Shown: in pieces, positions 79-63,561 of the stretch
How the letters are laid out: every line of letters begins with the position of its first letter
Position numbering within the stretch: position 1 is the stretch's first letter
Assembly: GCA_943736015.1 (NCBI GenBank)
Contig: OX031072.1
Coordinates: forward strand, 5,793,501 to 5,857,500
Direction: 5' to 3'
Length of the DNA: 64,000 bases
DNA from: Tridacna crocea
Taxonomy: Eukaryota > Mollusca > Bivalvia > Cardiida > Cardiidae
Position numbers and translations under genes: made by a program
The notes under the pieces: generated by a model
What the model saw: the letters and a program-made list of their open reading frames with translations, nothing else
The model's database searches: none
Told to the model about the DNA's origin: nothing

Positions 79-307
79 TTAACCCGTTACCAAACGACTA
101 AATTTAGACTTGTCCAAATTAACTGCATTTGCATACGACAAAATAAACTTGACACAGATGTTGAAACTTGACTTTAGAAGAGTATATAACATTGTAGGAA
201 AAGGAGAAAATGCTGCTTATTAGCATTTTCTCTTTTTCCGACAATGGTTTCAGAAGGCTTCTTCCTCTGGGGTCGTAAAAACCAGGGATTGTTTGGTAAA
301 GGGTTAA
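79..307 (-). mobile_element. HP1 TTAA-hairpin element
   Basis: Complete copy with TTAA at both ends, CCCGTTACCAAACGAC at the left and GGTAAAGGG at the right. The hairpin is slightly degraded (CTGCTTATTAGC centre). Confidence 0.85.
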
Positions 308-566
308 AAAGCATAACAAACACCCATGAAATGATATTAATTGAAAAATAGATTGAAAAGAACTAAGTATTTCTCCATTTTTCGGGTAACCACTAAATTG
401 CATTCTCATTAAGTTATGTAACATTTATAATTTATTAGAAATAAGGTGGGCTTACCAGAGATCGTATATACAAATACATGTATGTACGATGCCTGGGCAA
501 CCAAAGGCTATGGGTGCGGAGTGGTACAGAGTAAGATTTCAATAAGGAGTGGAAAACAAATCTCAG

Positions 567-780
567 TTAACCCTTTACCCCATGAGGCATTTCTATGGTA
601 TCTCTAATTGACCCTAAATGACAGCAAGAATGAAGTTGTTTCTTATGTGTAAATGACACCTTTTGATTGTATAGAAAACATTGTGACAAAAGGTGAAATT
701 GCTCACCTTTTGCCACAGTGTTTTCCAAAGGCTCCTACAAGCAATGCGTAGAAATGAGTATCTATGGAGTAAAGGGTTAA
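567..780 (-). mobile_element. HP2 TTAA-hairpin element
   Basis: TTAA-bounded. The left end is CCCTTTACCCCATGAGGCAT, the right end TCTATGGAGTAAAGGG. The hairpin arm GTGACAAAAGGTGAAATTGC pairs with a shortened second arm. Confidence 0.85.
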
Positions 781-897
781 GCAGGGCACTGCTACGACGT
801 TAAAAATGTTTTACATGATGCATCAATTTTCTGGCTCTTTGTAATCCTGAAATTTCTTTTTTTTTTCCCCCCTATCCTCTGCATACCCTTTTTGTCT

Positions 898-1113
898 TTA
901 ACCCATTACCACACAATCCCTACTTTTGACAACCCTGAGAAAGTAGCATCTAGAAAACATTGTGGGAAAAGGAGAAAATGCTGGTAACCAGCATTTTCTC
1001 CTTTTCCCACAATGTTTTCTACCCTTCCCAAGACAAATTTAAATTCATTTTGTCGTCTGCAAATGCTTACGATTTGGACAAACCTAAAAGTTTGTCGTTT
1101 GGTAATGAGTTAA
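898..1113 (+). mobile_element. HP1 TTAA-hairpin element
   Basis: Complete copy with CCCATTACCACACAATCCC at the left and GTCGTTTGGTAATGAG at the right. The hairpin around 955-1021 is perfect, with GGTAACC at its centre. Confidence 0.92.
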
Positions 1114-1765
1114 TGGTAACATACTTACAACTACGCGGAAGTTATTTCGATTGCACAATGCAGATCTCTTTAAATAGTCAGGTTAGATGCAGTATTTCAT
1201 ACCTATATTAGGGACCGCGCTTAACATTACAACCCCGTGGTAGAAGGCTTAGGAAAATACCCATAGATGGTACACAGCAGTTTCTCTTCTTTTCGCATTG
1301 TTTTCTCCTTCAGTGCTCAAATTTGTCGTCTATAAATGATTCTTATATGGGGAAACAGCATCTATCTGTTGTCTCCTGATAAAGAATAATACATCGATCT
1401 CTCTACTGCTGTTTGTGGTTTAGTTCCTACCTGTCACGGTTCTGTAGTTTTGAAAGGACTCAACAAAACTAACGCAGGTATCGTTTGAACAATAAAAATT
1501 GGTAAAAATAAACCCGCCATTATGGTCAAGGCTTAAATTTAAACAAACGCTCTTTAGACCCCATTTTCAACTTTTTGAGCATCGGAAATCTATGTGAAAA
1601 TTTTTGAATTTTTACCGAGGAAAAAAAGTGACCTTTTTCATCCATTTGAAGAGTTACAACTGAATATGTCGGAATTGTATAAAATGTTTAAATGAAGATT
1701 AAAGTTTAATACAGTATTAAAAAAACTGGATTTAGCAGCAATACTGGATTAGAAAAAAAACGGAA

Positions 1766-1838
1766 ATGACTATCAAGACAACTATTTTGTTGTTTTTGGG
1801 ATATGTCATTTCTTCCAATGCACAAATAATCTCTTTCG
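1766..1838 (+). CDS. Cont: Contactin exon 1: start codon and signal peptide
   Basis: The ATG at 1766 opens MTIKTTILLFLGYVISSNA followed by QIISF. This has a basic start, a hydrophobic core and small residues before a likely cleavage after Ala19. The donor is GTAAGT at 1839 and the exon ends in phase 1, which joins perfectly to the lectin exon at 18591 through a Gly codon. It lies 16.7 kb from exon 2, so the link rests on frame and signal-peptide logic only. Transcript data could show another first exon. The sequence upstream (about 1570-1765) is AT-rich and would hold the 5'UTR; I see no convincing core promoter. Confidence 0.7.
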
Positions 1839-4800
1839 GTAAGTAAGAAAAACTTTTTTCTCTGTTCATTTTTTTATTCGATGGGGCTTGACTTTAACAA
1901 ATCTAAACTCTGTCCTTTTAGTATTTTAGTATTTTTCCCAGACAGCAAATAAATTAGTTAAGTCGTCAGAGACTTTTTAAACAATAAATGATCACCTTAG
2001 TTCTGTTTGAGACAGTAAATAAATTAATAGATAAATAGATAAATAAATAAATAAAAATTATTTATAAAACTGACTTAGAAAACAAATAAATTTATATGAT
2101 CAGGGGAAAGGAACTGTACGGCAGTGCATGCAATGCATGGCAATGACGATTTTTAAACATTTAACAGTTGCAAAATGAATTAAAAAAAAAAAAAATCCAG
2201 CAAAGAGTGAAAAAAGTAGTTCTTTTACTTGGAAAAAATATCATTCCATCTCACATTTCACATTCAAGAACAGAAAGCGTGGTTCTGCGAGTCTGATCAT
2301 AGTCTACACTGTCAGCAAAAGGCTTTTTTTGTCACGCGCTTGTCAATTTCAGGATTACGGAAAGCTTATCATAGTTTATTTACTAGTAATTTGGATTGAA
2401 GATTTTCTCATTACACAGTTTTTTATGTTTAAATGTTACATAACCGTGAAAAGTAAAATTTGAAGAAAACCTTTTAGCCCTTAAATCTTTACCAAACAAC
2501 AATATTTTAGGTTAGTCCAAATCGAAAGCATTTGCAGACGACAAAATAAAAGTTGCTGAAAGTTTGAAATTTGTTTTGTGAAGGATAGAAAACATTGTGG
2601 GAAAAGGAGAAAATGCTGGTTAGCAGCATTTTCTCCTTTTGCCATAATGTTTTCCAAAGGCCTCTTTCAGTCTCAGGGTCGTCAAAAGTAGGGATTGTGT
2701 GGTAATGGGTTAAAGTGTTATACGGGACTTTCTGACTTGTGGACACTGTAGATCAAGATCAGGCTGCACCTAACGTGCAGTCTGATCTTTGGTTCTACAC
2801 TCTCTGATACGAAGATACTTTTTCTCCCGAATAATGACCTATGAAATAACAACTAGGTATATATTGTTTTAAATTTCGGCTTAAAAATTTCGTAAATGTA
2901 ATTTATACAGCAGGATGGGAGTTATTCGACTCTGACCTGACAATAAAATATTACACTCGACCATAATAAAGGTACTCATAAGCAACAAGATGATTATGAT
3001 GGGAAAGTGTGAAGAAAACATTGTCGTAAAAGGAGAAAATGCTTTTTTCCCACGGTTCTTAACTCATTACCAAACGACAATATTTTAGTCTTGTCCAATT
3101 CGAAAGCATTTGAAATTTGTATTGTGAAGAGTAAAAACATTGTGGGAAAAGGAGAAAATGATGGTTACCAGCATTTTCTCCTTTTCCCATAATGTTTTCC
3201 AAAGGCCTCTTTCTCAGGGTCGCCAAAAGTAGGGATTGTGTGGTAATGGGTTAAAGTGTTATACGGGACTGACTTGTGGACACTGTAGGACAAGATCAGG
3301 CTGCATTCAACGTGCAGTCTGATCCTTGGTTCTACACTCTCCGATACGAAGATACTTTTTCTCCCCAAAAATGACCTTTGACATAACAACTATATTGTTT
3401 TAAATTTCGGCTTGAAAATTTCGTAAATGTAATTTATACAGCAGGATGGGAGATATTCGACTCTGACCTGACAATAAAATATTACACTCGACCATAATAA
3501 AGGTACTCATAGGCAACAAGATTATTGCAGCCTATATGATGGGAAAGGGTGAAGAAAACGTTGTCGTAAAAGGAGAAAATGTTTTTTTCCCACGGTTCTT
3601 AACTCATTACCAAACGACAATATTTTAGTCTTGTCCAAATCGAAAGCATTTGTAGACGATAAAATAAAAGTGGCTGAAAATTTGAAAGTTGTATTGTGAA
3701 GAGTAGAAAATATTGTTGGAAAAGGAGAAAATGCTGGTTACCAGCATTTTCTCCTTTTCCCACAAGGTTTTCTCAAGCTCCGTTCTTAGGGTCGTCAAAA
3801 GTAGGGATTGTATGGTAATGGGTTAAAAATCGAGATGGCTGATAATGGTGTATATAGTGAGCAGCTTCATTGTTTGTAATGTTGTTCGTGTAAGACAGTG
3901 GCGTTTAGTGTTAGATGTCGGCCTCTCACACGAGTTGTTCTGGGTTCAAATCCCGACGGATGAGCGGGATCAAGCTTTGGAACTGCTCACACCAGCTCGC
4001 AAGTACTAGTTAAGGTTTTCGCGAACCAACCATCGAGTGATTTATATATATATAACTGTTGTGAAGAATTCTTCTCATGATAGATGTAAGCTAAAATATG
4101 TTAAACTCATTACAAAACAACAAAATATTTGGCTTGTCCAGATCGAAAGCATTTGCAGACGACAAAATGAAAGTGACTGAAAATTTGAAATTGTTTTGTG
4201 AAGGGTAGAAAACATTGTGGGAAAAGGAGAAAATGCCGGTTACCAGCATTTTCTCCTTTTCCCACAATGTTTTCAAAACGTTTTCTGTCTCAGTTAAAAG
4301 TTGATCCTCTCACTTGGAGAGAGAGAGAGAGAGAGAGAGGCATATTTACTGCTGGTTGAAAAGGCCTTTAACCCTTTTCCAAACGACATATTTTTGGACT
4401 AGACCAAATTGAAAGCATTTGCAGACGACAATTCAACTCCTGCTGAAAAGGTTATTTCTGTCGATGATAGGGTAGAAAACATTGTGGGAAAAGTAGAAAA
4501 TGCTGGTTACCAGCATTTTCTCCTTTCCCCACAATGTTTACAAAAGGCTTCTATTCCAGACCCGTAAAAACCAGGGATTGTTTGGGAAAGGGTTAAAAAC
4601 AGGGTCGGAAAAAGGAGAAAATGACGGTCCTGGATATTTCCTCTTGATTCAACCATGTTTTACACCATTTCAACGACAAACCCTACCATTTTATACATAT
4701 TTTACTTCGTCGTTTATACTTGCTTCCAATTTGTGAAAGTCTAAAATTTTGTCGTCTGCTTATTAACCCATTACCACACAATCCCTACTATTGACGCCCC

Positions 4801-10800: not shown

Positions 10801-13800
10801 ACCTCAAAGGATTGCTGACCATGAAAGGGTCCCTGTTTTTGAAGCGTTTCGGCGTAGTACTTTTCTTTTTCTTTGCTGGTATCTACCAGTATTTGCTATT
10901 TCAAAATGCTGGAGTTTTCTTTTTGTGTAGTGACGAGATTTTTTACATTAAACACATCTGTAGTAGAAACTGTGCGAGGGCAATGCGTTCGATTATACAG
11001 TCACATTTTCGAATGCAATCGCATGCATAACAAAATATTTGGGATCCCTTTTTGGTTCACGAGTACGGATTTCTCGCAAGAGTAGGCCTGCCTACTTTGG
11101 TCTTCTTGGGTTAAGTCAACCTCGATTAATCCCATGCAAGAAGACTTTTGAAAATATGGTAACCAGTATTTTCTCCTTTTCCAAAGATATTTTTCTACGC
11201 TGCCACACACGCACCCACAACAAACCTCAACCGATTTGGAGTTCATTTTATCGTCTGCAAATACTTTCAATTTGCGCAAGCGTAAAATTTTGCCGTCTGG
11301 CAAAGAAGTAGAAGCTTAGTTATAAATTTTTTGCGCAAGGTTCATGAAAGAGAATACTCCCTTTGATGAAGACTTCAATAAACTTCTTGAAGAAAACTTG
11401 TAAATCTGTAAATGCTTGACAATTTATCCCTCTTTCACCTCATGCACTTCTTGAAGACTGTTGTAAATCTGCGAACACTTAACGAAAGGTCGGACGTTTT
11501 GGCGACAATATGGGGATTTTTTTTTGAAAACAATGTGGAAAAAGGAGACATGTTGGTGACCAGCATTGTCTCCTTTTCCCACATTGTTTTCAATCCCAAT
11601 CTGAGAACTTAAGGTAATTTTTGCCAATTTCAAGTTTAAAGATTAATTATCGTTCGCAGATGTTTTGATTTTTGAACAGTTTAAAAGTTGAAGTGTTGGA
11701 AAAGGTTAATGTCGCTAATTTATACCCCTTCAAAGCACTCGGTACATGAAAAAAATAAGATACAGAATTTTTCTGTCTGTTTATGATCTGTCTCTCTTTC
11801 TCTCCAACCAATCAACTAACAGCAACCTGCCGATCAGTCGATTATTTTGCTGTCCTAAAATGCCTTAACACCCGCCCGCTCTCTCTCTCTCCCAGATTTT
11901 CCAAAATTATTACTGCAATATTTAGGTTCAGTTTAATGTACTAAGAGCGAACCTGAAACTCTTCGATTGTGAAGATAATATTGCCGGTCCTAGTTACCAT
12001 AGGCGGGCAAAGTTCGAACCTGGGTTATTTTGTTGCTTAAATGCACAAGATATTAGACTTGTCCAGGGTTTAAAGGTGGCCCTTCAGATTTTGGGACGAA
12101 AATTGTACAAAAATACAAAAAAAAAATCATCCTTATACTCCCAGAGCCTTTTAATTTTCATTCATAAAACCCAGTAGTCGAACATCGTCCGACAACACGA
12201 GAAATTAGAGATTTACTACAGCCCAGGTCGACACCGACGGGAGACACGTTCTATTTTTAGATGATCAATTCGCTCATTTACATACAGAAATTATTGATTT
12301 TTGGCGCGAAATCTAAAAATACCTTAAAAGGCTACGTAGCCTTTTAAGGGAATACCATCAAAAAATTTTGTTTTGTAATTTTCTGAATCTTAATTATTGA
12401 TGATATGTATTATTTTTTCATATGAATTTCAGTAATCTATATACATTTTAATTTGGTGAGATGTAAAAGTTCTAAATACCCACCTTTAAAGCGTCTGTGG
12501 CTAAAACTGTACATATGCCCATTTTAAAACATTAGAATACACGGTCCCCAATAAGGCACTTCTATGGTAGGCCTATCTATAATTGATCCTAAATAACACC
12601 AAGGATGAAGCTGTTTCTTATGTGTATATGACATCTTTTGATAGCATAGAAAACAAAAGGTGAAATTGCTTGTCACGAGCAATTTCACCTTTTGCCACAA
12701 TGTTTTCGAAAGGCTTCTACAAGCAATGCGTAGAATGAGTATCTATGGAGTCAGATTCGTTTGAAGAAATGAAAACGTTACATTTGCTGAACGATTGGCA
12801 CTGATAAAGAGTGCAACTATTCACATGTCCAACAGATAGTGTGATAGGTTATATTATGTTTTGTGAGATGTACTAGAGAGAGTATGTGTGTGTGTCACGT
12901 GTCATTTACATTCTTTGTATTATTATATTGTATGACGAAAAACTTTGTTTGAGTCAAATTCATTTATTCATTCATTCATTCATTCATTCATTCATTCATT
13001 CTAACAGAAAACTAAAGTACGAAACCCGTTGCATAATGTGTTCGCCATTATGGTAATACATGACGTTAGAACATGTATGATATCCGATATTCCAGTAGAT
13101 CACTGTGGCAGCCATCACGTGATCTCACCGTCGTCCACCAGTCTCTGCGGATGATGTTTCATGTTACAATGGGGTATCGAGTCAACATGTCATTAAGAAT
13201 TCAAGGTCATTTATAACTATTTTATTTTCATTATTTAGGTTGAAAGGTCGATCGAGGGTCATTAGGCTACGGGTAAATTGTTCTTTAACTGTCACCTGGC
13301 AAAATCACGCTGTAATTCCCATTCGGTGAATTCTTGCATTGTGACCTAAAGCTCCAGAAAGATGGAGTGATTTTGATATCAAAGTTAAAAAATATTTTTC
13401 TCCCCTACACTTTATGTTATGGGCACTCATCAGAATTGTCTCGATGAGACGATTCTAATGAGTACCCACAACATAGGGTTTTGAAGAGAAATATTGGATT
13501 CTAAATACCATCACTCCCTTATATCATCTGGAGGTGTCTGTTAAGTATTCAGAGATCTGATTGTTTCTCCTTTTAGAGGATTTCCTCTCTTTAAACCTGA
13601 AAGTGAAAGTCCACAACCGCCCTAGCCTGGCATTCAGGCCGTGCATTTAGTCATTCTAATAAATAAGGTACACAACAACAGCAAAGTCACAGAAACATGT
13701 TTTGTTATTTATCCTTCTGAAATACAGGCGTTAAATAGACATTCAGAACATTGAGAACACAGGTGAAATCCAGGAAATACATGAATTTGTGAGCTGTCGC

Positions 13801-25800: not shown

Positions 25801-28800
25801 TATTTTGAGCCCCATCCAATTTGTCATTTACAAATGATTTGACACAAGTGTAAAATTTTGTCGTCTGATAAAAGATGGGAAAATAAATTCTACTACACAA
25901 GCCATACATGGTAATTACGTTATCTACAATAGATCTAAGTTTTGTCTGCATTTTAGGAGGTCATGCATTTTTCTTCCTTTCAGACAGTCCTATTTCTTCA
26001 CATCGGCATATTATTTCAATAACCAACTCTTGTGGGAGGGTGACAATTCTGTTTTTGTTGGAGAGGGGTATTGGATTAGAATTCCAGAAGATCGGAACGT
26101 TGTTCACCGAGTTGTATATGCATATGGTGGTAAGTTTGCAATGTAATAAGCTTGACCAGTTGACCGCTATTGTCTGCATGAACAGTCCAATTGTTTTTAA
26201 AAATCAGAAGAAGAAGCCTTTTAACGTATAGTTGGAAAAGAAAATGCTGGAAACCAGCAATTTCTGCTTTTTCCACAATGGTTTTTTCACTGTTGTTTGT
26301 TATTTTTTGGGAAAAGAAAATGCTGGAAAGAAACCAGCAATTTCTTCATTTTCCACATTTAACCCTTTAACAGATGACAAATTTTTGGACTTGTCCAAAC
26401 TGAGAGCATTTGCAGACGACAAAAAAAATATGACTGAAAAGTTAAAATTTGCTATTGGAAGGGTAGAAAACATTGTAGAAAAAGGAGAAAATGCAGGTTA
26501 CCAGCATTTTCTCCTTTTCCTACAATGTTTTCTAAAGCCTTCTTTTTCAGGGTCATCAAAAGTGGTCATTGTGTGGTAAAGGATTAAGCCCTTACCAACT
26601 GGCATGGTATTAGAGCCCAGCCAGATAGCTCAGTGCTTAGCTTATCTTACTTGTGACCTTGTTGTTGCTGGTCAGATACTCTGTTGAGGCAAAATTTCTT
26701 TCCATTGATTCTTTGCCTGACACCTCTATTACAAGTGGGAAAAGTAGTCAGTAACAAGGAAAGAAAGTTGTGTGAGAACTGCTGCAAGAAAGCCACAAAA
26801 CACATGAATAGGTGCACTGATCAACATGAGTGTGCTGTAATATTTAGAATTTATGTTTACCAACTATTCTAAATAGCATTGATATACCCCTGCAAAACGA
26901 ATGTTTTTGGGTATACTTGAATCAGCCTGTCTGTGTGTTCGTCTGTATACAAAATACTAGTAATTTTGTGTCGCAAACTTCTCCCACAGTTTTCCTTCAA
27001 TTGTACTGAAACTTTGTACATATACTGATCATATATTGAAAATTTGCAAGATGTAATTTTCATGTGTCAACTCTTCCTGGTTGAGAAATCATCTCCCCTT
27101 GAACTTGACATTTTTTTCTGTCAAAGCACTGGCAGGATTCAGTGACAGCTCTTGTTTGTCTGATTTTCAAGAATTTTCCAAAACTCCAAGTAACACAGTT
27201 TCTGATTGGCTGTTACTTCCAAAGTGTAGAACTAGACTTAAATTGCTTTGAGAATGTTTTGTAAATACAAACCATGCTGTTTTTCAGGATCAAGACTTAA
27301 CCTGGATGGTTACGGTTGGATGAATTTAAGTAGCAGCCATCCAGCCAACTATATTTGTGAGATAGACAGACAGACAGCGTCCACTCTGGACTTCTTGGAT
27401 AGAGATTTTGGTGAGGACAGATGTGCTTTCTTGCAAATATAACAAAGTCTGTAGGAGATAAATAGGATCTGACATGAGTTGGCATTGAAATAAAATTTTA
27501 TTTATCCTTTACCACACAGCAGAATTTTAGACTTATCCAAATCGAAAGGATCTGTAGTTGATAGTTTCACAGTGGCTCAAATGATGCACTTTTTTCTTTG
27601 ACAGAGTAGAAAACTTTCTGGGAAAAGGAGAAAATGCTGGTTACCAGCATTTTCTCCTTTTCCCACAAAGTTTTCAAAAGGCCTCTTCCTCAGGGTCGTA
27701 AAAAGACTGTTGGTCCAATGACTTGGTGCCTAAAGTAAATGGTCTGAGTGTTTGACATTAAATTCAGTTTCACATAGAAACACTTCATATAAATATAGGA
27801 ACATGCAAATCAGTAAAGATAGAATTTCCTGATTCCATGAATGAGGTTTAATTTTTTTTGAAAAGGTCTATGAATAAATGCATTGGTGAATTCATCTTTT
27901 CAGAAAATTCTTGGTTAGAAAGCCAGTTCATATACATATATTTTGAAATGTTATTTAACCCTTTAACAAACAATTTCTGGTTTTCTCAACTCTGATAAGA
28001 AAACTTTTGAAAACATTGTGGGGAAAGGGGAAAATGCTAATAACCAGCACTTTCTCCTTTTCCCACAATGTTTTCTACCCTTCCCATTAAAAATTTCAAT
28101 TTTGTAGTCACATTAAGTTTGTAGTCTGCAAACTCTTTCGATTTGCATGAATCTAACTTTTTGTTGTTTGGTAAAGAGTTAACCTTTTACCACACAATCC
28201 TGACTTTGAACACCCCTGTGAAAGAAGTCACGTGAAAAAATTGAAGGAAAAGGAGAAAATGCTGGTAACCAGCATTTTCTCCTTTTCCCTAAATGTTTCC
28301 TTCCCTTCCAGAAACAAATTTGAATTTTTCAGTCACATAAATTTTGTCATCTGCAAATGCTGCCAATTTGGACTAGTTGTCAGTTGGTAAAGGTTTTATG
28401 AGCAGGAAAGAAACAAAATATTTTGTTTGAGGACAAAAATTCAAGGGAATTTGCTACCTTAATTCAGTCACATACTTTTCAAATTTGTATTTCACAGACT
28501 ATGGGATCGGTATCACTGATCCCAGAGAGATTGAGAGAGGCCCAGCAGTGGACTTGCAGCCACACAGCACTGTGGTAGGTTGAAAGTTACTAGATAGCAC
28601 TGATTGTTCAAGTGTAGTATACTGGTTTATCCAACAGATAGATGTAAAAGGTATAATGTAGCTGGGTACAGGTATTTGGTGATATATCTTGCGGCTGTAT
28701 CGACATGTGGTTTGGTAGCTCAGTTGGTTAGAGTGCAGGAACGGTATTTCTGAGGCCCTGGGTTCGAATCCCGGTCGAGCCGTGATAGTTTTCACCACCT

Positions 28801-37800: not shown

Positions 37801-40800
37801 GCCTATGTGGCAATACTAAATCAAGGTAGTAATCATTTCCGATTAGAATTTCAACACTTGAGCTCTCAGTTTCTGTCGGAATTGTATCTGCCATATCTAC
37901 ACTCTTTAACAAATGTTCAAGATGTCCTAACGACGACATATCGATATGCTTTCTGATTATACTTCCACTTATGATAGGAACTATATTAGCTGTCACATTA
38001 ATGTATTGGCCATTATTCAATTTTAGAGACAACTTCGTTAAGGCTGTCTTAATAACCTTTGGATTGTCACTACCAAAAGTAGATAATTGTATTTCTTGCT
38101 CACTTTCCTGTTTTAGTCCTAGCCGATTTGCCAGTGACTCCGTTATATATGTTCGTTGCGAACCACAATCGAGTAGTAGTCGAGTCTTAAGACAAAAAGC
38201 ATTTCTGGGATTGTTAATTTCTACAAATGCAGTTTGCATTAGAACCATATCATTGGATGATACTAAGAAATATTCTTTAGGAGTCTTTTCAGATGTTTGA
38301 TCATTCTTTTCAATGAAACTCATATTTGAAGATTCATGAAGTGTCTTAGTTTCAAACATTTTCGGACAAAGGCTTCGGTGATGTTTGTTTTCTTCTCCGC
38401 AATAAACACATGTTTTGTTTCTCTTGCAATCCTTGGACAAATGTCCTTCACGTAAACATCTGAAACAGCTTCCTTTTAATTGTTTCTTTCTTTCGATATC
38501 AGTCTTATATTTCCAACATTCATCACTGTAGTGTTTCTCTGTACAGTATCTACACTGATCAGCTGAGAATTTTGTAGAGACAGGTTTATCCACTTTATTC
38601 CGATTAGAGGCCGCGAATAAAGCCTCCGTTGAACTTTTTACTACAGTTAACGGAGCATTCTCTTTCCTCCCGGAGTCACTTTCCACTAGTGATTTAGCGG
38701 GAGTTGAAGTTTGTGCATTTCCTTTATATTGGAAAGATGTCTGTTCTGGAACAGCAGATTCAATGGCAGTTACGTAATGTTTTAGCTCATCCAGTAACCA
38801 AGCAACTGTCCATGAAGAACTGATATCTTTTTTTATTTCAAGTTGAACCAAAACTTTAGTCGGCAATTTGGATTTTATCATAGATACAAATACTGCTTGG
38901 TTCACATCCTGTTTTAAAACCTCCAGGCTCCTCAAATGTCTTTGAATTTCACTTAAAAACGAGCGCAAACTCTCGGCTGTTTCTTCCGGTCTTTGGATAT
39001 TCATCAGATGCGAATAGTGTAAGTCAATAATATCTTGTTTTCTTCCAAATCTCTCTTCCAAGAGTTTTACCGCCACTCGGTAGTTATCATTCGATAGTGC
39101 TAGACCAGATATTGTTTTCTTAGCTTCTCCGGTCAATTTACTCATCAGGTATGTCAATTTTTCTACATCAGACAGGTTTTTGTTGCTGTGGACAGCGCAG
39201 TCAAAAGTATCCCAAAATTCTGTCCATTTGATTTTGTCACCATCGAATTGTATCATTTCTAATTTAGGTAGTTTTACAGTGGATTGATCATGACGTCCTT
39301 TCTCTTGTCTTTCAAAGTACTCTTGTTGCAGCTTCATCTGATCCATTACCATTTTCTGCATCTCACTCTGCAATTTAACAAGATGATCTCCTTTTTCCAC
39401 AGTGCTTTGGTCGAACTTTTCCTCGTGTTTTATTTGTTGGTCAAGGATCGAATCCTTGAATTCTTCAAGTTCAATACGGCTACTGATAACCTGCTCACAA
39501 AGAATTCCGTCATCATTGAGAATTTCGGCAACTAAATCCTCGTCCGAATCGTCAATAGCACAACACAATTCTTTAGATTTGTCTTCAAGTTTCTCACGAT
39601 ATACATCCAGTGTCTTTATGCACTTGTTAACTTTCATTAGTATTTCTTCTTTAGCATCGAGTTCAAAGTCACTGTCTATTAGTGAAGCACATCGTTGTAG
39701 TTCATTCTCTAAAACGTTCCGGTATCTTGTTCTTACACCTTTAAAGTATTTCAAGTCCGCCATGGTTTAATGAGTTTAAAATTCTCAAGTCTGATTCTGT
39801 TCCCGGGTTCCGGCGCCAAACAATGTCGCAAAGATCCTTTTAGTCCTTTATTTTAATTCTCTGCGCATTGGGTGTTATTTTAAACAAGTCCGTAGTTTCA
39901 GTTTACTTCCTTTATTTTCATTCTTTATTTTATTCATCTATTTATAAGCCAAAATATAACAGCAACGAAAACAATCTTCTTCATTATTTTTAATTAGCTG
40001 ACCAACAACAGCTATCCAAAGAACCTTTTTTATTTTCATTTCTTTGTTTTTCTTCTTATTTTAATTAGCCGATTTTACAGCTATCGAAAGAACACTTTTA
40101 CGTTCTCTTTTATTCTCGTTTGCTTTCCAAACTCCTTTTCAAAACTCCCCCTTCGTCATTCAAACCCTGTTATTTATATGGTTTTAGTGCTCCGTTGGCT
40201 CCGCTGCATGAAAATCATATGAAACATAAGAATCAGTTGAAACCCAAGCAGCGCACCAAAGGAGCAATAAACGGAGTATAACTTTAACTTGGCATAAAAC
40301 CGGAGTCTTACCGGAGTAGACAAAAATGTACTCTTACTACATGAGATAACTGAAATTAGCCAAACAGGCGATTTAACAAGTAATATTTGAAAACATTGTG
40401 ACAAAACGATAAAAAACTCGCAGAATTCGCGACAATAATTGCCATACATTTAAATGGTGTGATTTAGATTTAAATGCATTTTAGTAACCTATTGTTTACT
40501 CTTGGCTGCTATTGGGCCTTTAACCCTTTACCACATGGCAAAAATATAGACTTGTTTAATTAGAATACATTTGCAGACAACAATTTAAACATGGCTCAAG
40601 TGATGGAATTTGCAAATGATAGGGTAGAAAACATTGTGGGAAAAGGAGAAAATGCTGGTTGCAAATGCTGGTTGCAAATGCTGGTTGCAAATGATAGGGT
40701 AGAAAACATTGTGGGAAAAGGAGAAAATGCTGGTTACCAGCATTTTCTCCTTTTCCTACGATGTTTTCAAAAGGCTTTTTTCTTGAGATCGTCAAAACTA

Positions 40801-43800
40801 AGGACTGTGCAGTAAAGAATTAAACTTTTGCTAACAGAAGTTTAGTTTTTGAAACATGTTAATGTTTGTTTTTTTACAAGGGAATTAACCCTTTTCCAAA
40901 AAAAAAAAGAGAAAAAAATAGACTCTTCTTTGTTGAATGCAGTTGTAGACCACAAACTGGACATTGGTACAAATAAACAAACTTCTCTGACTGGGTAGGA
41001 AATTTTATGGGTTAAAGAAGAAAATGCTGAATACCAGCATTTTCTCCTTTTCCAACAATGTTTTCAAAAGGCATCTTTTTCAGGATGGTGAAAACATGGG
41101 ATTGTTTGCCATCCATCTTCACTCTTTTTCTTTCCAGTCATCCTTTGTTCTATTCCTGGAGAAGAGAAGACGGACGAGATTTTGTACCTGGCACTGTGCT
41201 ATCAGCCAGAAACAGAGTGTTGACCATCACAAATGCCCCGCTGGAGGCAGAGGGTGGATATGTTTGCAGATGCGTCAGGGGCAGTGGGGCGTCAGCTGAA
41301 AAAGTTATCAATGTGTACATGGAGGGTGAGTGCTTTTGACCTCTTGCCAGGAAATCCTGTGCTTTAACTCTTTACCACACAATCCTGACTTTTAACCAGC
41401 TTGAGAAATACAGCTTATGAAAACATTGTGGGAAAAGGAGAAAATGCTGGTGATCAGCATTTTCTCCTTTTCCCACAATGTTTTCTACCCTATAAAAGCA
41501 AAATTGTACCATTTGAGCCACTTTGAAATTGTCGTCTGCAAATGATTTCGATTTGAAAAGGTGTAAAATTTTGCCGTGTGGTAAAGGGTTAATGCGTCTT
41601 AGCCCTTTCCCAAACAAGCCCTGGCTTGTCTGCAGTAAAAGTGTTTGAAAACACTGTGGGAAAAGGAGAAATTGCTTGTATCAAGCAATATCTCCTTTTC
41701 CCACAGTGTTTTCTACCCTTTTAGAGAAATTTCTGCCATTTTCTCAAAATCTAAAATTGTTGTCTACAAACTCTTTCAGTTTGGAAGAGTCCAAAATTTG
41801 TCGTTTTGGAAAGGGTTAATGCCTCTTAACCCTTTCCCAAACGACAAACTTTTGGACAAGACCAAATTGAAAGCATATGCAGACGACAATTCAACTCTTT
41901 CTGAAAAGATGATATCTGTCTATGATAGGGTAGAAAACATTGTGGGAAAAGGAGAAAATGCTGGTACCAGCATTTTCTCCTTTTCCCACAATGTTTTCAA
42001 AAGGCTACTATTCCAGACCCGTAAAAACCAGAGATTGTTTGGAAAAGGGTTAAGGAAGAATGATCATACGAAAAGGAGAAAACGCTGGTATCACTTTTCC
42101 ATCAATGATTCAGTTATTTCAAAGACAGATCCTATTCTTTGAGCCACTGTTAATTTGTTATTCATCATGTGCAAATTCTTCGCATGTGGACAAGTAAGAA
42201 ATTTTGTCATCTGGCATAGGCTGAAAAACACACATTGTAGATGTGTGTGACATAACATTTGAATGTCTGGGATATAATTTTTGAATGTCTGCTCATAGGT
42301 GTGTGAAAGAGTTATCACCCTTTTAATGCAGGTAAGATTTAAGTTATCTCTGTCTTAGGTCTTGTATTACCTGTTTAGATTTTGGAGTGCAAATGAAACA
42401 CAAAAGATATGTTCAGTGTAAAAATATGACTTATGTAATTGCATTTTCAAAGTATATTTTGTCGAGCGTGCGTCAGCAAAGTGGGAAGTGAAAAACGAGC
42501 ATGAGACTGCATGTTTGATCTTAACCCTTTACCACACAATCCTGACTTTTAACGACCCTGTGAAAGAAGCCTATAAAAAACATAGTGGGAAAAGGAGAAA
42601 ATGCTGGTTACCAGCATTTTCTTCTTTTCCCGCTATATTTTCTACCCTATCAACATCAGAAATCATCATATTAACAAGATTTAAATTGTTGTCTGCAGAC
42701 GCTTTGAAGTTGGTCCAGTCCAAAAATTTTTTGTTTGGTAAAGATTTAATCAGGATTTAACCCTTTACCTAGCAATCCCAACTTTTATAAACCATTTGAA
42801 AACATTGTGGGAAAAAGAGAAAATGCTGGTGACCAGCATTTTCTCTTTTTCCACAATGTTTTTTTTTAAACCTACATAAGCCAGTCCTGTTATTTCAACA
42901 ACATATAATTTGTTATATGCAAATGCTTCCAGCTTGGACCAGTTCGAAATTTTGTAGTTTGGTGAAGAATTAAATAGTTAGAAATATTCATAAATTGTCT
43001 AACATTGATTATTTCAGCCAAACCGTACTTCCCTTTTCCAATGAAAAACATGTTTGCCGATCCTGGAATGCTATTGGAATGGCACTGTAAAGCCGTCGGA
43101 CGACCCAGGCCAGATTACACTTGGTATAAAGATGGACAACTTCTAAAGAATATACCAGGTCAAATTGAAATCTACAAGAACACTTTGAGGATTTTCAGTG
43201 TGAACAGCAATCGAGATGAAGGGATGTATCAATGTGCAGCAACCAATCAACATGGAACTACTTACGACTCTGGACAGCTGAAAGTGCTATGTAAGTTTTG
43301 TGTGATTCTTGTCAATCAATAAGTTCTTACTTGTCTATATGATTGATTAATCCTTTACCACACAATCCCGACTTGTAATGACCCTGAGAAAGAAGCCTTC
43401 TGAAAACATTGTGGGAAAAGGAGAAAATGCTGGTTACCAGCATTTTCTCCTTTTCCCACAATGTTTTCAAAAGGCTTCTATCTGAGAGTTGTAAAAACCA
43501 GGGATTGTTCTGAAAACATTGTGGGGAAAAAGGAGAAAATGCTGGTTACCAGCATTTTCTCCTTTTCCCACAATGTTTTCAAAAGGCTTCTATCTGAAAG
43601 TCGTAAAAACCAGGGATTGTTCTGTAAAAAAAATTAAACATCATATTTCAAATTAGTGATAGGAAAGGATGATTCCATTTCATGTTTATTCTTTCAGGTA
43701 TAAGTGCAGCAGCCCCTCCCCGGTGGCTCAATGGTCAGCATGTCGGACTTGTGACCTAGCGGTTGTGTGTTTGATACCCGGTTGAGGCAAACTTTCTTTA

Positions 43801-52800: not shown

Positions 52801-55800
52801 TCTTGTACAATATTTCAACTAGGGCATGCAGCAAAACAGTCCAGGTCTGTATATAACAAATGCACAGTATAAGCATATTGGTTTGTACGAATGTGAGGCC
52901 AGAACAACGCTACATTCTGTGTCAAGGTCAGCTCTTCTTAGTGTTGAAGGTCAGTTACGCTTTAACTTCTTTGTTTTATTTTCACATTGCAGGTCATGAG
53001 TGTGTATGTACTAAAAGTATTAACCCTGTACCATGTAATCCTATGTTATAACGACCCTAAGGAAAGTGCCTTTTGAAAAGGGAAAAGGAGGAAATGCTGG
53101 TAACCAGCATTTTCTTCTTTTTCCACAATGTTTTCTATCTGTCCCAAGGTGAATTTCTATTTTTGAGTCACAGTTATTCTGTCCAATGCAAAAAACTTTC
53201 GATTTGGGCAAATCTTAAAGTGTTTTTTTTTTATTTGGAAAAGATTACATGTAGTTTGATGAAGTTGGTTTTATTGAAAGTTTCAAAGGGTTTTATCCAC
53301 TTTCAGCAGTTTTGCTTGTGTACGTCCTTTGCAGTAATTGTCAGGTGTCGTCATACAGGGCTTATAACCTGGAATTCACAAGTTCGGAAACCGCAGCTTG
53401 ACCATTTCTTTAGAATGATTGATGATTGTCACTGTGAAAGAGTTATTTGCCTCTGTCCATCGATAAATGTTTTGATAATGGTTAACCCATTACCACACAA
53501 TCCCTACTTTTGACGCTCCTGAAAAAGAAGCCTTTTGAAAACACTGTGGGAAAAGGAGAAAATGCTGGTAACCAGCATTTTCTCCTTTTCCCACAATGTT
53601 TTCTACCCTTCACAAAACAAATTTCAATTTTTCATTCACTTTTCTTTTGTCGTCTGCAAATGCTTTCAATTTGGACCAGTCTAAAATTTTCTTGTGTGGT
53701 GATGAGTTAACTCTTTACCAAGCAATCGCTGAGATAGAAGCCTTGTGGGAAAAAGAGAAAATGCTGGATACCAGCATTTTCTATTTTTCCCATAATGTTT
53801 TCAAATGGCTTCTATCTTAGGGTCATCAAAAGTCGGCATTGTGTGATAAAAAAAGTCATGAGTGTTTGGTAAGGGTTATAGGGAAAGCTGCACGTGGCTT
53901 GTAAAGAGGATTGTGAGAAGTTTGGGTATAAGGAACTTCAGGAAAGCTTTGGTAAGTGCACTTGCCATAGCGATATAACTGATATAATGTTGAAAACAGC
54001 ATAAATCACACGTTTGAACAAACAAAGCAACAGTTTCCGATGTGTTCCTATCAGGTAATTGTTGATCAGTTTTCCAGTGACGAGACTGTAGATTCTGGCA
54101 AAAAACACCCTTTATATACAGTGATTACAGTATTTTATTGAAGTCTATTGCAGCTTGATCACAATTTTTTTTTTTTTATCTCTGTATTGAAAGCAGTTGT
54201 AGACATAAAATTTTAGTGTACATATCTAAAATAATGGTATTAGTATTCATCGGTTTACTTCCAAAACCTCATAACTACAGCTTGTTTCAACCTGTAGTTA
54301 CGACGTTTAGGAAGTAAACCGATGATTTTAAAAGACTGAAAATGTTTTGGGAAAAGGAGAAAATGCTGGTAACCAGCATTTTCTCCTTTTTCTAATATAT
54401 TTCCAAAAACCCTATTTCTCAAGACCATAAAAATATTGGATTGTTAGATAAAATGTTATTTTTGTATTTAATTCTATTTCAATTCAAACCAGGACCCCCT
54501 GACATGCCGGCAGGAGTGTACGCTGATGATAGCAGTATTACCGAAGAATCTGTGATGCTGATTTGGACCGTCACTGCAGAAATAAACCATGGTGCCCCAG
54601 TTACAGGTTATGACATTGAGGCCGAGACAAATTTCCACCCAGGTGTCTGGCAACTGGTTGCCTCAGGTAAACAGTTCAATTACTTACTGAAAGTGTAGTT
54701 TTTAGCTCTGCTGTTTTTTTTTTTTTTTTTTTAAAAAGACAAATTATTATATCCCCCACACAACAAAGTGGAGGGAGGTATATTGGAATTGCAATGGCTG
54801 TCCATCCATCCAGCCACCCGTAGACACAAATTTGTTTGGCGAAATACTCCGACAGTTTTTCAAATTTACACACACTGTCCCTATATCAATGAAGTTGTGT
54901 ATGTCTAATTTCTATGACCCTGCTGGGAATTGTTGTTGAATTACCTCCCCTTGAACTTTTTTCAACTCTTTACTCTTGTACTAAACCATTCTGCATTTTA
55001 TCACCAAGACCTGTTTTGTGACAAGGAGCTGGTGGGGGGTATGTTCATGTTTAGTGATTGCTCTTTTATCATAACCCTGGGTCCGTATTCACCAACGGTT
55101 GTTAAGAACGTTCTTGGGCTTATTCTTCAGAATTTTGTCAATGTGAAAGTAACAGAACTTCTGATTGGCTAAACCAATTGGTTTAGCCAATCAGAAGTCC
55201 TGTTACTTTCACAGTCAGAAAATCTTGAAGATTTAGACAAAAAAATGTTCTTAAGAATGGTTGGTGAATACGGACCCTGGTTTCATCATCATCTGTGTTG
55301 TCATGCCAAACTTGACATTGTGTAATATCTCTATTATTACTGAAAATAGCTACTTTAACCCATTACCACACAATCCTTACTTTTGACGCCCCTGAGAAAG
55401 AAGCCTTTAGAAAACATTGTGGGAAAAGGAGAAAATGCTGGTAACCAGCATTTTCTCCTTTTCCCACAATGTTTTCTACCCTTCACAAAACAAATTTCAA
55501 ATTTTCAGTCACCTTTATTTTGTCGTCTGCAAATGCTTTCAATTTGGACCAGTCTAAAATATTGTCGTTTGGTAATGGGTTAAACTTGGACAAGATGTTA
55601 ACTATCAAAAGAGGAGCTCATAAGATAGGGACAGGTAGCCATGGAGGTATTTTTGACACAGTTATGTCCCTTTTTCGACTTACAATTGTCACAAAAACTG
55701 GTCTGCTTCATTGTTTGCATGGTCATCTGTAGTGTTGTCATCGCGTGAATACTGTTACATTTTGTAATTATCTCTGTTATAATTGAAAATATGTACTTCA

Positions 55801-58800
55801 AATTTGGACTATTTGTCAACTATCAAAAGGGTAACCCATGCATACAACAGGGGTAGGTAACCATCAAGGTATTTTTGACACCATAATGCCTCATTTTTAT
55901 TTGGAATATTCATTGAAAATCAAACACTTGCAGCCAAGTATTGGCACCTGCATGTTTTGCTCTTGTTATACCCACAAAATGTTGAACCCTTACTGCAAAT
56001 AAGGAGCGTTAATAAATTTGAGGAAGGTTACTTTTGAAAACACTTGTAGAAAAGGAGAAAAAGCTAGTAACTAGCATTTTCTCTTTTTCCCACAAGGTTG
56101 ATAAAAACCATTTGAGCTTTATTTTATTTGTCTTCTGCAAATGTTTCGAAAAGTTTTGTCTTTTGGTAAAACGTTAAGCTGTTTCTTGCCGAATAACTTA
56201 AATAATACCTTCAAGTCGATAGTAAAATCCCCAAGGTTGCTATTTTTAGGTTATTTTGGGGATGATAAATATCTCCTTAACCCTTTACCACACAATCCCG
56301 ACTTTTGACGCCCCTGAGAAAGAAGCCTTTTGAAAACACTGTAGGAAAAGGAGAAAATGCTGGTAACCAGCATTTTCTCCTTTTCCCACAGTGTTTTCTT
56401 CCCTTCCCAGAACACATTTCAATTTTTCATTCACCTTTATTTTGTCGTATGCAAATGCTTTCAATTTGAACCAGTCTAGAATTTTGTCGTGTGGTAAAGA
56501 GTTAACCCTTTACCACACAATCCTGACTTTTAATGACCCTGAGATAGAAGCCTTTTGAATACATTGTGGGAAAAGGAGAAAATGCTGGTAACCAGCATTT
56601 TCTCCTTTTCCTACAATGTTTTCTACACTCCCAAAATCAAAAATCAATTTTTGATTCACATTTCATTTGTTGTCTGCAAATGCTTTCGATTTGGAGTAGT
56701 CCGAAATTTTGTTGTTTGGTAAAGAGTTAACGGACAGTGTAGATTAAAGATCAGACTGCATGTTCTCTGCAGTCTGATCTTGATCTACATTGTCCGTAAA
56801 AGGTCAGTGAGTCGAGCTTAGCAGCATAAGGGTTAATATAGACAGTTTTCATCGATTCTATCTCTTCTACATACAGATATTCCAGAGTACATCACTGTCA
56901 CAGAGGCCCAGAACAACAACAAGCGAGCAGACCAGAGGGCCATTGTTGTTCAGTCTCTCATACCCAACACCAGCTACAAGTTCCGAGTTCGAGCCATCAA
57001 CTTGTATGGCAGGGGACAGGAAGCCAGCAAACCATCATGTGAGTGCCTGTTTTCTATATTCCAGACTGGTAACCAGCATTATCTCCTTTTCCCATAATGT
57101 TTTATACCTATTTAACCCTTTACCACACAATGACAACTTTTGACGCCCTTAGGAAAGAAGCCTTTTGAAAACATTGTGGGAAAAGGAGAAAATGCTGGTA
57201 ACCAGCATTTTCTCCTTTTCCAACAAAGTTTTCTACCCTATCAAAGTAAAATTGTAGCATTGGAGCCACTTTGAAATTGTCGTCTGCAAATACTTTCAAT
57301 TTGGATAGGTCTAAAATTTTATTGTGTGGTAAAGGGTTAACCCTTTACTCCATAGATACTCATTTCTACACATTGCTTGTAGGAGCATTTGGAAAACATT
57401 GTGGCAAAAGGTGAAATTGCTCGTGACAAGCAATTTCACCTTTTGTCACAATGTTTTCTATGCTATCAAAAGGTGTCATTCGCACATAAGAAACAGCTTC
57501 ATCCTTGCTGTTATTTGGGTCAGTTAGAGATGCCATAGAAAAGCCTTATGGGGTAAAGGGTTAAAAACAGGTAAATTGTCCTCTGTGAATTCCATCAGTA
57601 AAGACCAGTTTGAAATTCTGCTGTGTGGTTAAAGGAATAATACGTGATTGTTTCAAAAATATTTGAAGCCATCTTGTAGAAGTTACCCCTTTACCACACA
57701 ATCCTGTTTTTATACAACCCTAAGGTAATGGCTTTTTAACCCTTTCCCAAACGACAAACTTTTGGACTAGACCAAATTGAAAGCATTTGCAGGCGACAAT
57801 TCAGCTCTCGCTGAAAAGATGATTTCTGTCTATGAGAGGGTAGAAAACATTGTGGGAAAAGGAGAATATGCTGGTTACCAGCATTTTCTCCTTTTCCCAC
57901 TATGTTTTCAAAAGGCTACTATTCCAGACCTGCAAAATCCAGGGATTGTTTGGGAAAGGGTTAAAACATCATGGGAAAAGGACAAAAGGTGGGAAACAAC
58001 ACTTTTTTTTTCCTTTTTTTCCACAATGTCAACTTCAACCCTTTAACAAACATCCAAATTTTAGACTGGTCCAAGTTGAAAGCACTTGCAGACGACAAAA
58101 TAAGAGTGACTGAAAATTCAAAATTTGTTTTGTGAAAGGTAGAAACAATATGGGAAATGTAGAAAATGCTGGTTACCAGCATTTTCTCCTTTTCCCACAA
58201 TGTTTTCAAAAGTCTTCCTTTTCAGGATCATTAAAAGTCAGGATTGTGTGGTAAAGAGTTAAAGACAATGCCTCTCAAATGAGCATCATTTAGCATGTTC
58301 AAATGCTTTTGATTTGAATGAATCTGAAAATTTGTATCCTGGTAAAATGTTGACAAAACTGTAGCTTGTTACATAATTTGCAATTGTACTGCCTTACTGT
58401 AAACCTAGTTTCTGTTGTGAGTTTGTCTGTCACCCTGTCTTTAGTTTGGAGCCTGTATTTTACAGCAAGTGTCAAGATTAGATCCAGACCGCCTGTAGTT
58501 GCACCAAGAAATGTGGGAGGAGGTGGAGGAAAAGTGGGAACTTTAACAGTGACCTGGGAGGTAAGTTAATGGAGGTATTTTAACCCTTTCCCAAACAATC
58601 CCTGGTTTTTACGGGTCTGAAATAGTAGCCTTTTGAAAACATTGTGGGAAAAGGAGAAAATGCTGATAACCAGCATTTTCTCCTTTTCCCACAATGTTTT
58701 CTACACTATCACAGACAGAAATCATCTTTTCAGCAAGAGTTGAATTGACGTCTCCAAATGCTTTCAATGTGGTCTAGTCCAAAAATTTGTCGTTTGGGAA

Positions 58801-61800
58801 AGAGTTAACCTTTTATCTTTGATGTTGTTGGTAAGCCATCATGAGCCTGTCACCTAATGCACAGTCTCAACTTTTAAAGATGCTGAAGCATAAGAAAGCC
58901 TTTAAGGTGTTGAAAAAGGAGATAATGCTGGTAACCAATCGTCGCCCCTTTTTCCACAATGTTCTCTAACCATTTGAAGACAAACCCATAACACAAGACA
59001 CATAAAACTATCCATCTTCAAATGCTTTCAAAATGGGCAAATCTAGAATTTTGTCATGCAGTAAAGAGGTTATCAATTATCTTTTTTTAGACACAGAGAA
59101 AGGATTTAACCCTTCACCATACAATCCCAACTTTTAATGACTGTGAGAAAGAATCCTTTTGAAAACATTATTGGAAAAAGAGAAAATGCTGGTAACCAAC
59201 ATTTTCTCCTTTTCCCACAATGTTTTCAACCCTATCAAAGGCAAATCCCACCATTTGAGCAGCATTTAAATTGTCATGTGCAAATGCTTTGAATTTGGAC
59301 AAGTCTAAAACTTTGCCGTTTGGTAAAGAGTTAACCCATTACCACGCAATCCCTACTTTTGACGACCCCGAGAAAGAAGCCTTTAGAAAACATTGTGGGA
59401 AAAGGAGAAAATGCTGGTGACCAGCATTTTCTCCTTTTCCCACAATGTTTTCTACCCTTCCCTACGCATATTTCAATTTTTCCTTAACATTTGTGTTTTC
59501 CTCAGCAAATGCTTTCAATTTGGACCAGTCTAAAATGTTCTCATGTGGTAAAGAGTTAAGAAAGGCTGATGGAAAAGAATTAAAATGCCGATTGATATGA
59601 GTATAAGGCATCTTTTGAGACCAAGACTTTAGAGGTGGACAAGTTTTCTTTATCTTACCATTAGAGGTGGACAAGTTTTCATCATTGCACCATTAGAGGT
59701 CGACAAGTTTCCTTCATTCCACCATTAGAGTGGACAAGTTTTCTTCATTCCACCATTAGAGTGGACAAGTTTTCTTCATCCCACCATTAGAGGTGGACAA
59801 GTTTTCTTCATCCCATTATTAGAGGTGGACATGTTTTCTTCATCCCACCATTAGAGTTTGACAAGTTTTTTTCATCCCACCATAAGAGGTGAACATGTTT
59901 TCTTCATCCCACCATTAGAGCTGTACAAGTTTTCTTCATCCCACCATTAGAGCTGGACAAGTTTTCTTCAAAAAGTGGGAAAGGGAACATTGTGGGAAAA
60001 GGAGAAAATGCTGGTCACCAGCATTTTTTTCTTTTCCCACAAAGATTTCAAAAACTGTCTTCTACAGGGTCTCACAAAGTCAAGATTCCGTAGTAAAGAG
60101 TTATGGATTATTTATGTTACTAAACTGGATGACTAGTCCATATTGTGGTAAAAAGATAAATACACATTCTCAGTCGGTAAAATGGATGCACATATCATAA
60201 TTTCAAAACTTTTTTTATCATGCTATTTTGAAAGAAAAGCAAGCAGTGCAGTTCCAAGGTATTGTGCAGTCTGATCTTGATCTTCACTGTCTGCATGAAT
60301 GATTAAATCATTGTTTTAACACAAAGGTTAAACCTTTACCCCATAAGGCATTTTTTCTGGTATCTCTAATGGACAGTAAATAACAGCAAGGATGAAGCCG
60401 TTTCTTATGTGTATATTACACCTTTTGATAGCATAGAAAACATTGTGACAAAAGGTGAAATTGCTCGTCACAAGCAATTTCTCCTTTTGCCACAATGTTT
60501 TCCAAAGGCTCCTACAAGCAATGTGTAGAAATGCGTAGCTATGGAGTAAAGGGTTAAGTAAACCGGTTACTAAAGTAATGTAGCAGTGTCGCTGTCTGTT
60601 AACAACATCATTTTGATATTTCACAGCCACTAGATATATCGGAACATTGTGGTCCTGGCTTGGGATATCATGTATACTGGAAGAAACTTGACGACAATAG
60701 GGACTGGAAAAGAGTAAGTTTTTAATATTTGATACTATTAGCTTGATGTCTTAACCCTTTACCCTTTACGCACAATGACGACTTTTGACGACATTTTGAA
60801 ACTTGTCTTTCTAAAACATAATGGGAAAAGGAGAAAATGCTGGTAACCAGCATTCTCTCCTTTTCCCACAATGTTTCTATCCTACCAATAAACAGTTGCA
60901 CCATTTGAGCCACATTGAAATTGTTGTCTGCAAATGCTTCCAATTTGGACAGAGCTAAAATATTTGTCGTCTAGTAAAAGGTTAAGTGTATGCTTATATG
61001 CCATTACCCATGTCAGAGCAAATTTAAAGTGGTCCAGAATTTTAAAGTTACATGTTAGGGCAATAGGCAATAAAAATGGAAAGTCAAAAACTGTTTGAAA
61101 ATCTCACCAACTATTTCAAGCAATAGATGGTCTTGCGTAGAGCTTTGATATTTGGTATGTGGCATCTCCTAGTGGACCTCTACCAAGTTTGTTTAAATCA
61201 TGCCCATGGGGTCAAAACTGGCCCCCGCCCCGGGGTCACAAGTTTGAACATAGGAACAAAGAAAGAAAATTTTAAAATTCTTCTTCTCTAAAACTAGAAG
61301 GCATAGAGCTATGATATTTGGCATGTAGCAATTCCTAGTGGATCTCTACCAAGTTTGTTCATATTATGCCCTTGGGGTCAAAACTGGCCCTGCCCCAGGG
61401 GATCACAGGTTCGAACATAGCAACAAAGAAGGAAAACTTTAGAAATCTTCTCTGAAACTTGAAGGTGCAGAGCTTTTATATTTGGTATGCAGAATCTTCT
61501 AGTGGACCTCTACCAAGTTCGGTCATATGATGTCCCTGGCATCAAAACTGGCCATGCCCCGGAGGTCGCAGGTTGAAACATAGGAACAAAGAAGGACAAT
61601 TTTAAATTTCTTTTTCTCTTAAACGGGAAGGTGTAGAGCTTTGATACTTGGTATGTAGCATCTTTGAGCGGACCTCTACCAAGTTTGTTCCAAGGATGCT
61701 GCTTTGGTTAAAACTGACCCAGCCACGCGGACCACAAGTTCGAACATAGGACAAAGAAGGAAAATTTAAAATTCTTCTTTGAAACTGGAAGGTTGACCAT

Positions 61801-63245: not shown

Positions 63246-63342
63246 GTAAGTAGTATAAGACATGTATACAGAGACCGTCCAAAGGAAGTCATGATAGTTG
63301 TTTCTTTAGAAGGTGGTCCCAAATTGCAAGTTCAAACATGTT

Positions 63343-63561
63343 GATTGAACTCTTTACCAAATGACAACTGGTCCAAATACAAAGCATTTGCTGATGACAA
63401 AATAAATATGACTGAAAAATCGAAATTTGATTTGAGAAGGACAGAAAACTTTGTTGGAAAAGGAGAAAATGCTGTTTACCAGGATTTTCTCCTTTTCCTA
63501 CAATGTTTTCAAAAGCTTTCTCATGGTTGTTAAAAGTCAGGATTGTGTGGTAAAGGGTTAA
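63343..63561 (-). mobile_element. HP1 element
   Basis: CTCTTTACCAAATGACAACTGG at the left without TTAA, GGTAAAGGGTTAA at the right. The hairpin is sound except for the centre (TGTTTACCAGG). Confidence 0.85.

Follow-up and report, generated by a model that had tools for sequence, protein, structure and literature searches.

The coral CMITEs are the nearest described elements that we found to the repeat analysed here. CMITE of Acropora corals shares with it the TTAA duplication, CCCTTT-type ends and the presence of copies side by side, and in both elements the internal region is more conserved than the ends and of unexplained origin (PMC2872659). In the element studied here, the mean majority-base fraction over 200 near-full copies is 0.91-0.92 in the internal palindrome, compared to 0.84-0.85 in the inverted ends and 0.77-0.78 in the arms. 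The two are likened by description, and the available part of the CMITE report describes neither a palindrome nor changes on both sides of one. They also differ in size and number: CMITE is about 100 bp long and is estimated at 1,600 copies in A. millepora (PMC2872659), compared to 229 bp and approximately 1.17 million extrapolated copies for the present element. The latter is several hundred times more numerous, roughly 700-fold by extrapolation, than CMITE, the single related family with which copy numbers were compared. The solo terminal repeats of KolobokP are likewise non-autonomous, numerous and members of a TTAA-duplicating superfamily, but are approximately 450 or 660 bp long, possess 5'-RR termini and originate from terminal direct repeats, according to the accessible text of PMC9587614. 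In common with TTAA/piggyBac-type MITEs in general, the element is non-coding, has short inverted ends and targets TTAA, and it differs from them in occupying about 19% of sampled stretches and in its off-centre palindrome, which is symmetrical across subfamilies. In our judgement, this abundance and the palindrome are unusual for such MITEs. The new aspect is the symmetry kept across subfamilies, the element being otherwise of a known kind with exceptional abundance.

The window, i.e. the whole stretch of 64,000 nucleotides of Tridacna crocea DNA analysed here (C17:5793501-5857500), provided 16 complete copies for a first profile, and a second was re-estimated from 152 full matches in the window and in fetched loci. 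The resulting consensus is 229 bp long including both TTAAs, and is arranged as TTAA, a 12-bp inverted end of CCCWTTACC type, a left arm of about 88 bp, a palindrome of about 67 bp, a right arm of about 36 bp, the other inverted end and a second TTAA. The left arm ends around column 104 and the palindrome is centred on column 141, with 33 bp on either side of a single central base, in agreement with the 66-bp hairpin of the preliminary description. On both sides the commonest end letters are TTAAC[T/C]C[T/A]TTACCA (200 near-full copies of 378), with CTCT as the commonest left end and CCCT as the commonest right end. The short inverted ends carry a terminal motif of, or close to, the CC[C/T]T type, given as a hallmark of piggyBac in the part of PMC2872659 available. 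The length is uniform, with 46 of the 152 full matches measuring exactly 229 bp and 123 having one of the 15 commonest lengths, between 214 and 235, and the element is short and, as judged from the list of open reading frames alone, non-coding. A typical complete copy with TTAA at both ends is located at 55355-55583 on the minus strand (229 bp; RNA fold of -101.6 kcal/mol, z -10.6), and a typical palindrome at 951-1022, inside the minus-strand copy at 898-1113. The complete plus-strand copy at 567-780 has CCCTTTACCCC-type arms, resembling the consensus of the divergent subfamily 1, in which the palindrome is of a different sequence (assigned by eye). Of 317 palindromes, 280 are at least 50 long, and of these 175 have both arms typed while 105 are without one or both. 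As 173 of the 175 are left-right, two right-right and none left-left, the asymmetry of the element is stable. In the window, two palindromes with right arms on both flanks are found at 43402-43471 and 53738-53804.

A search with the second profile detects 123 non-redundant copies in the window, the first base at 79 and the last at 63561, covering 33.4% of the bases; reversed and Markov-simulated sequence yielded no match at E up to 0.1 in a control run with the first profile. The span is precisely that over which the preliminary description had recognised one palindromic element, and its impression of abundance holds, although its figures of 80 or more copies and perhaps a quarter of the window were too low. 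Most of the palindrome is kept in 82 of the 123 copies, and both ends are reached within five columns in 54. Complete copies had been described as having TTAA at both ends, and this is found, in exact form, in 36 of these 54, with an exact TTAA at one end in 15 and at neither in three. Overall, 105 of the 153 termini reached in the window have an exact TTAA, compared to 0.8% of positions.

The element targets TTAA, duplicates it, and has inserted in both orientations and into itself. An empty site is available for L022:8934-9162, a complete copy that lies within another dispersed repeat. When joined at one TTAA, its flanks match four other copies of that repeat with 89-93% identity, L013, L014, L016 and window:12419-12291 (minus strand, 12291-12419), all with a single TTAA where L022 has the element. 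This is the one clear case among the 84 complete copies with exact TTAAs whose flanks were joined, and weaker spanning matches were obtained from L004 to L014 (80%) and in two further cases (about 73%). Neighbouring copies can also share the target, as 19 pairs in mixed orientations overlap by exactly four bases, i.e. one TTAA. Two complete copies with one common TTAA are found on the minus strand at 56277-56730 (56277-56505 and 56502-56730), 57112-57564 and 59106-59559, and genome-wide there are 10,747 shared-TTAA junctions with exact ends, compared to none in the control. Insertion of the element into itself is seen in five of the 84 joins, where the element model aligns straight through the junction of the flanks with E < 1e-10, including the copies at 57736-57964 on the plus strand (E 7e-19) and 62422-62650 on the minus strand (E 9.1e-15). 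The empty site and the shared TTAAs, together with the exact TTAAs at the ends of window copies, thus establish the duplication and strengthen the piggyBac-type character first suggested from the termini.

The palindrome remains symmetrical while its sequence changes. Clusters were called from the arms alone, five of them comprising 151 of 210 copies, with the remaining 59 in clusters that are too small for this comparison. The consensus palindromes of the five have 0, 0, 0, 1 and 0 mismatched pairs of 33, and a slightly different set of copies gave two for subfamily 1. One palindrome sequence is common to three of the clusters. Four left-arm changes set cluster 1 apart from the main cluster, at pairs 3, 8, 13 and 20 counted from the centre, and each is accompanied by its complementary change on the right side, which has one additional change. 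In cluster 9 the changes at pairs 3, 8 and 26 are matched in three of three cases. A matched change at pair 26 is also present in 16 copies of the main cluster. The changed palindromes are from two clusters only, with pairs 3 and 8 changed in both, and the independent events are hence few. In the genome, a pattern allowing any combination at pairs 3, 8 and 13 is found at 209,043 places; among the matches listed, the first on C1 and inspected by eye, ten have three pairs changed and three have two pairs changed, all fully matched, and no unmatched combination was seen among them. Shuffles point in the same direction. In a random draw of 90 from the 208 complete palindromes, 62 cells are changed on both sides compared to 17.7 +/- 3.8 in the shuffles, 90.1% of cells are paired compared to 49-58% when the partner is slid, and in each of five measures all 500 shuffles stay short of the observed value. 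We consider the cluster comparison better evidence than the shuffles, as relatedness inflates the latter.

Single copies behave differently from the consensuses. In the five clusters, 6.8-10.3% of their pairs are mismatched at a palindrome divergence of 4.3-5.6% per site, i.e. a ratio of 1.5-2.1, where about 2 is expected if the arms decay independently, and only 16 of 171 palindromes are perfect. With the consensuses (near-)perfect and the copies losing pairing, symmetry is therefore kept mainly in the multiplying lineages, much more than in single copies. In isolated subfamily 1, departure from the consensus is similar in the arms (90/1416) and the palindrome (35/697). With the arms evaluated on held-out columns, the differences between palindromes are about half those between arms at every distance, which unresolved subfamilies, arm alignment or slower decay after insertion could each explain. 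A first reading, in which the palindrome/arm difference was equal in close copies, vanished with the held-out columns.

Because the palindrome is symmetrical in five subfamily consensuses, two of them with changes on both sides, while copies lose pairing, it seems to matter for amplification. The kept symmetry would most likely be due to a contribution of the palindrome to mobilisation or amplification; the palindrome might bring the two ends together, or might form a hairpin or cruciform in single-stranded DNA. In a more far-reaching reading, which we consider somewhat less likely than not, it would be a selected amplification device that stays symmetrical while the sequence drifts, and through which the element, with more than one million copies, would have come to make up more of an animal genome than any other single component. 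The subfamilies with matched palindrome changes make such a role concretely testable.

Alternatively, the palindrome may be without a role, its symmetry being kept by arm-to-arm correction in source copies through template switching or recombination, an explanation that we regard as less likely than not. Palindromes mutate by such processes, which can make near-palindromes perfect, and the mismatch ratio of 1.5-1.8 in four of the five clusters is below the two expected for independent decay. Shared matched changes, such as that at pair 26, lower this ratio too, and copies may undergo some internal correction. Of 34 double changes confined to a single copy, 21 are complementary, as arm-to-arm correction would predict; we do not count them as support, since transition bias alone could, we argue, give rise to much of this. 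Single copies nonetheless lose pairing (0.103 mismatched pairs compared to 2 x 0.050 in subfamily 1), and correction after insertion is consequently weak at most, while the two right-right and zero left-left copies among the 175 typed indicate that arm exchange is rare.

It has also to be considered that the host may benefit from the palindrome, for instance through small RNAs derived from it, and that the copies are retained for this reason. A single strand of one copy indeed folds so that the palindrome makes up a long stem, and the copies are located between the exons of a gene. Since most copies have lost perfect pairing and both orientations occur, we judge a host role improbable, and at the gathering threshold Rfam detects only a tRNA in the window. 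The gene itself is of the neuronal adhesion type, as previously supposed, based on one Ig I-set exon at about 43023-43286 on the plus strand, whose best solved relatives are neurofascin and the contactins. No copy overlaps this exon or any of five putative exons identified by eye, the latter being without a Pfam match, and nothing ties the element to the host gene.

Regarding its mobility, the element is very probably a non-autonomous DNA transposon (MITE) of the TTAA/piggyBac type that was multiplied genome-wide by a transposase acting in trans. A piggyBac-family enzyme supplied in this manner would have cut and pasted it, and the source element may now be lost, or located outside the loci examined. 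The genome contains 118 matches to the piggyBac transposase family PF13843, some of them pieces of one locus and many with open frames, and none falls in the window, as had been concluded from the letters alone. Both flanks were read for 16 of the 118, and for eight more a 3' stretch of about 850 bases, in one case together with a 5' stretch of 701 bases. A search for a longer element with the same ends and a transposase had been suggested; piggyBac transposases do exist in the genome, but none among the 16 flanked and eight one-side loci has the element's ends as its own. Clear ends are present in ten of the 16 flanked loci and represent four families, L027/L030/L035/L036, L028/L039/L040, L037/L041 and L034; the ends found in the four families are CCCTTTATATAC, CCCTAGTCATGC, CCCTTTCAGYGC and CCCATTTATGCC. 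L029, L031, L032, L033, L038 and L042 are without clear ends. Like the element, the piggyBacs of these four families have ends starting with TTAACCC[T/A], and they differ from it after the first bases.

Of the eight loci read on the 3' side, five are without any part of the element in these approximately 850 bases. At L045:125-362 and L047:268-521, two fossil piggyBacs 6.6 Mb apart on C3 carry downstream one and the same damaged double element, and their similarity stops within the palindrome of that double element. At L046:724-828 a left-end fragment of the element directly adjoins the TTAA of a CCCATTTATGCC-type piggyBac end, and here another piggyBac has probably inserted in a copy of the element. 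The 701-base 5' stretch of one fossil piggyBac contains an ordinary complete copy, with no other piggyBac end seen in it by eye. The frame at L027 was considered as a source, as it lies between two element ends; its own piggyBac ends are found inside these, and L035 and L036 share only the inner part, so we read L027 as a 2,766-bp piggyBac with a 624-residue frame inserted in a copy of the element. The 2.76-kb copies of the L027, L035 and L036 family are 98.8-99.9% identical and have long open frames, and judging from these features the family has probably been active recently. The element itself comprises several subfamilies of unequal divergence. Among 200 near-full copies the smallest pairwise difference is 2.2%, the overlap between two fetched loci being set aside, and copies diverge from the consensus of their subfamily by 5-12% on average. 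A very recent amplification of the element is thus excluded, in keeping with a source that has been lost.

Duplication of TTAA is common to piggyBac and Kolobok, and a Kolobok transposase could in principle have moved the element. The KolobokP lineage is rich in bivalves, and Kolobok termini are 5'-RR and YY-3', as given in the accessible text of PMC9587614, while the element begins with 5'-CC or 5'-CT. Kolobok is excluded only by these different termini, which largely refute it and leave it a very slim chance.

The assembly comprises 1,048,827,098 bases in 31 contigs, 18 of them of 40-77 Mb, and from each of these large contigs the 10-kb stretch at 20.00-20.01 Mb was taken as a sample. These 180 kb contain 200 copies with a mean coverage of 19.2% (SE 2.0, range 3-35%), and extrapolation from the 18 stretches yields the figure of about 1.17 million copies, fragments included. 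Exact patterns provide counts for the whole assembly, with 86,803 exact end pairs 188-216 bases apart compared to none for the reversed pattern, 183,553 occurrences of the exact 31-bp palindrome core compared to none reversed, and 133,483 of TTAACCCTTTACC on both strands compared to 48 reversed. The preliminary description had left open whether the density is genome-wide, and the presence of the element in all 18 stretches together with these counts establishes that it is. Its presentation as a feature of the introns of one gene was an effect of sampling, the family being genome-wide. That the density is local or an artefact of assembly can be dismissed. In its favour is only the higher density of the window compared to the sampled average (33% compared to 19%); every sampled stretch, one per chromosome-size contig, carries the element, the genome-wide counts contradict a local origin, and these counts together with the divergence between copies exclude an artefact. 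A mild local excess in the window is possible, given 33% here against a mean of 19% and a range of 3-35% in the sampled stretches. This MITE family, at near 19% of a genome of 1 Gb, raises the question of how an element multiplies to this extent without an enzyme of its own. Outside this genome, no exact match to the palindrome core was found in viral contigs or prokaryote genome contigs, nor any blastn match in phages, and of the open-access literature text searched for six stretches of the palindrome only one zebrafish paper matched.

Several other features were observed alongside the element. At 36789-40449 on the minus strand, the window contains a retroelement, which we take to be BEL/Pao-like, with an 826-residue frame carrying DUF1759, DUF1758 and aspartyl protease domains, flanked by near-identical frames at 36789-37067 and 40174-40449 in the list of open reading frames. 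A tRNA-Thr (GGT) at 28708-28783 on the plus strand may be a tRNA-derived repeat, and at 2700-3830 a tandem array was recognised by eye, in which a stretch of roughly 0.5 kb, with copies of the element, is present two or three times. Other hairpin repeats, of different sequence and located outside the element, number 16 in 244 kb, some recurring between contigs, with examples at L021:5965-6079, L025:4422-4536 and window positions 13413-13475, 29692-29726 and 54247-54325. Haemocyan_bet_s gave no match, in a search run without a positive control. Finally, 29,009 bases is large for an animal mitochondrial genome, and C31 is a mitochondrial contig of this length containing COX1, whose frame is open with either the invertebrate code or code 4.
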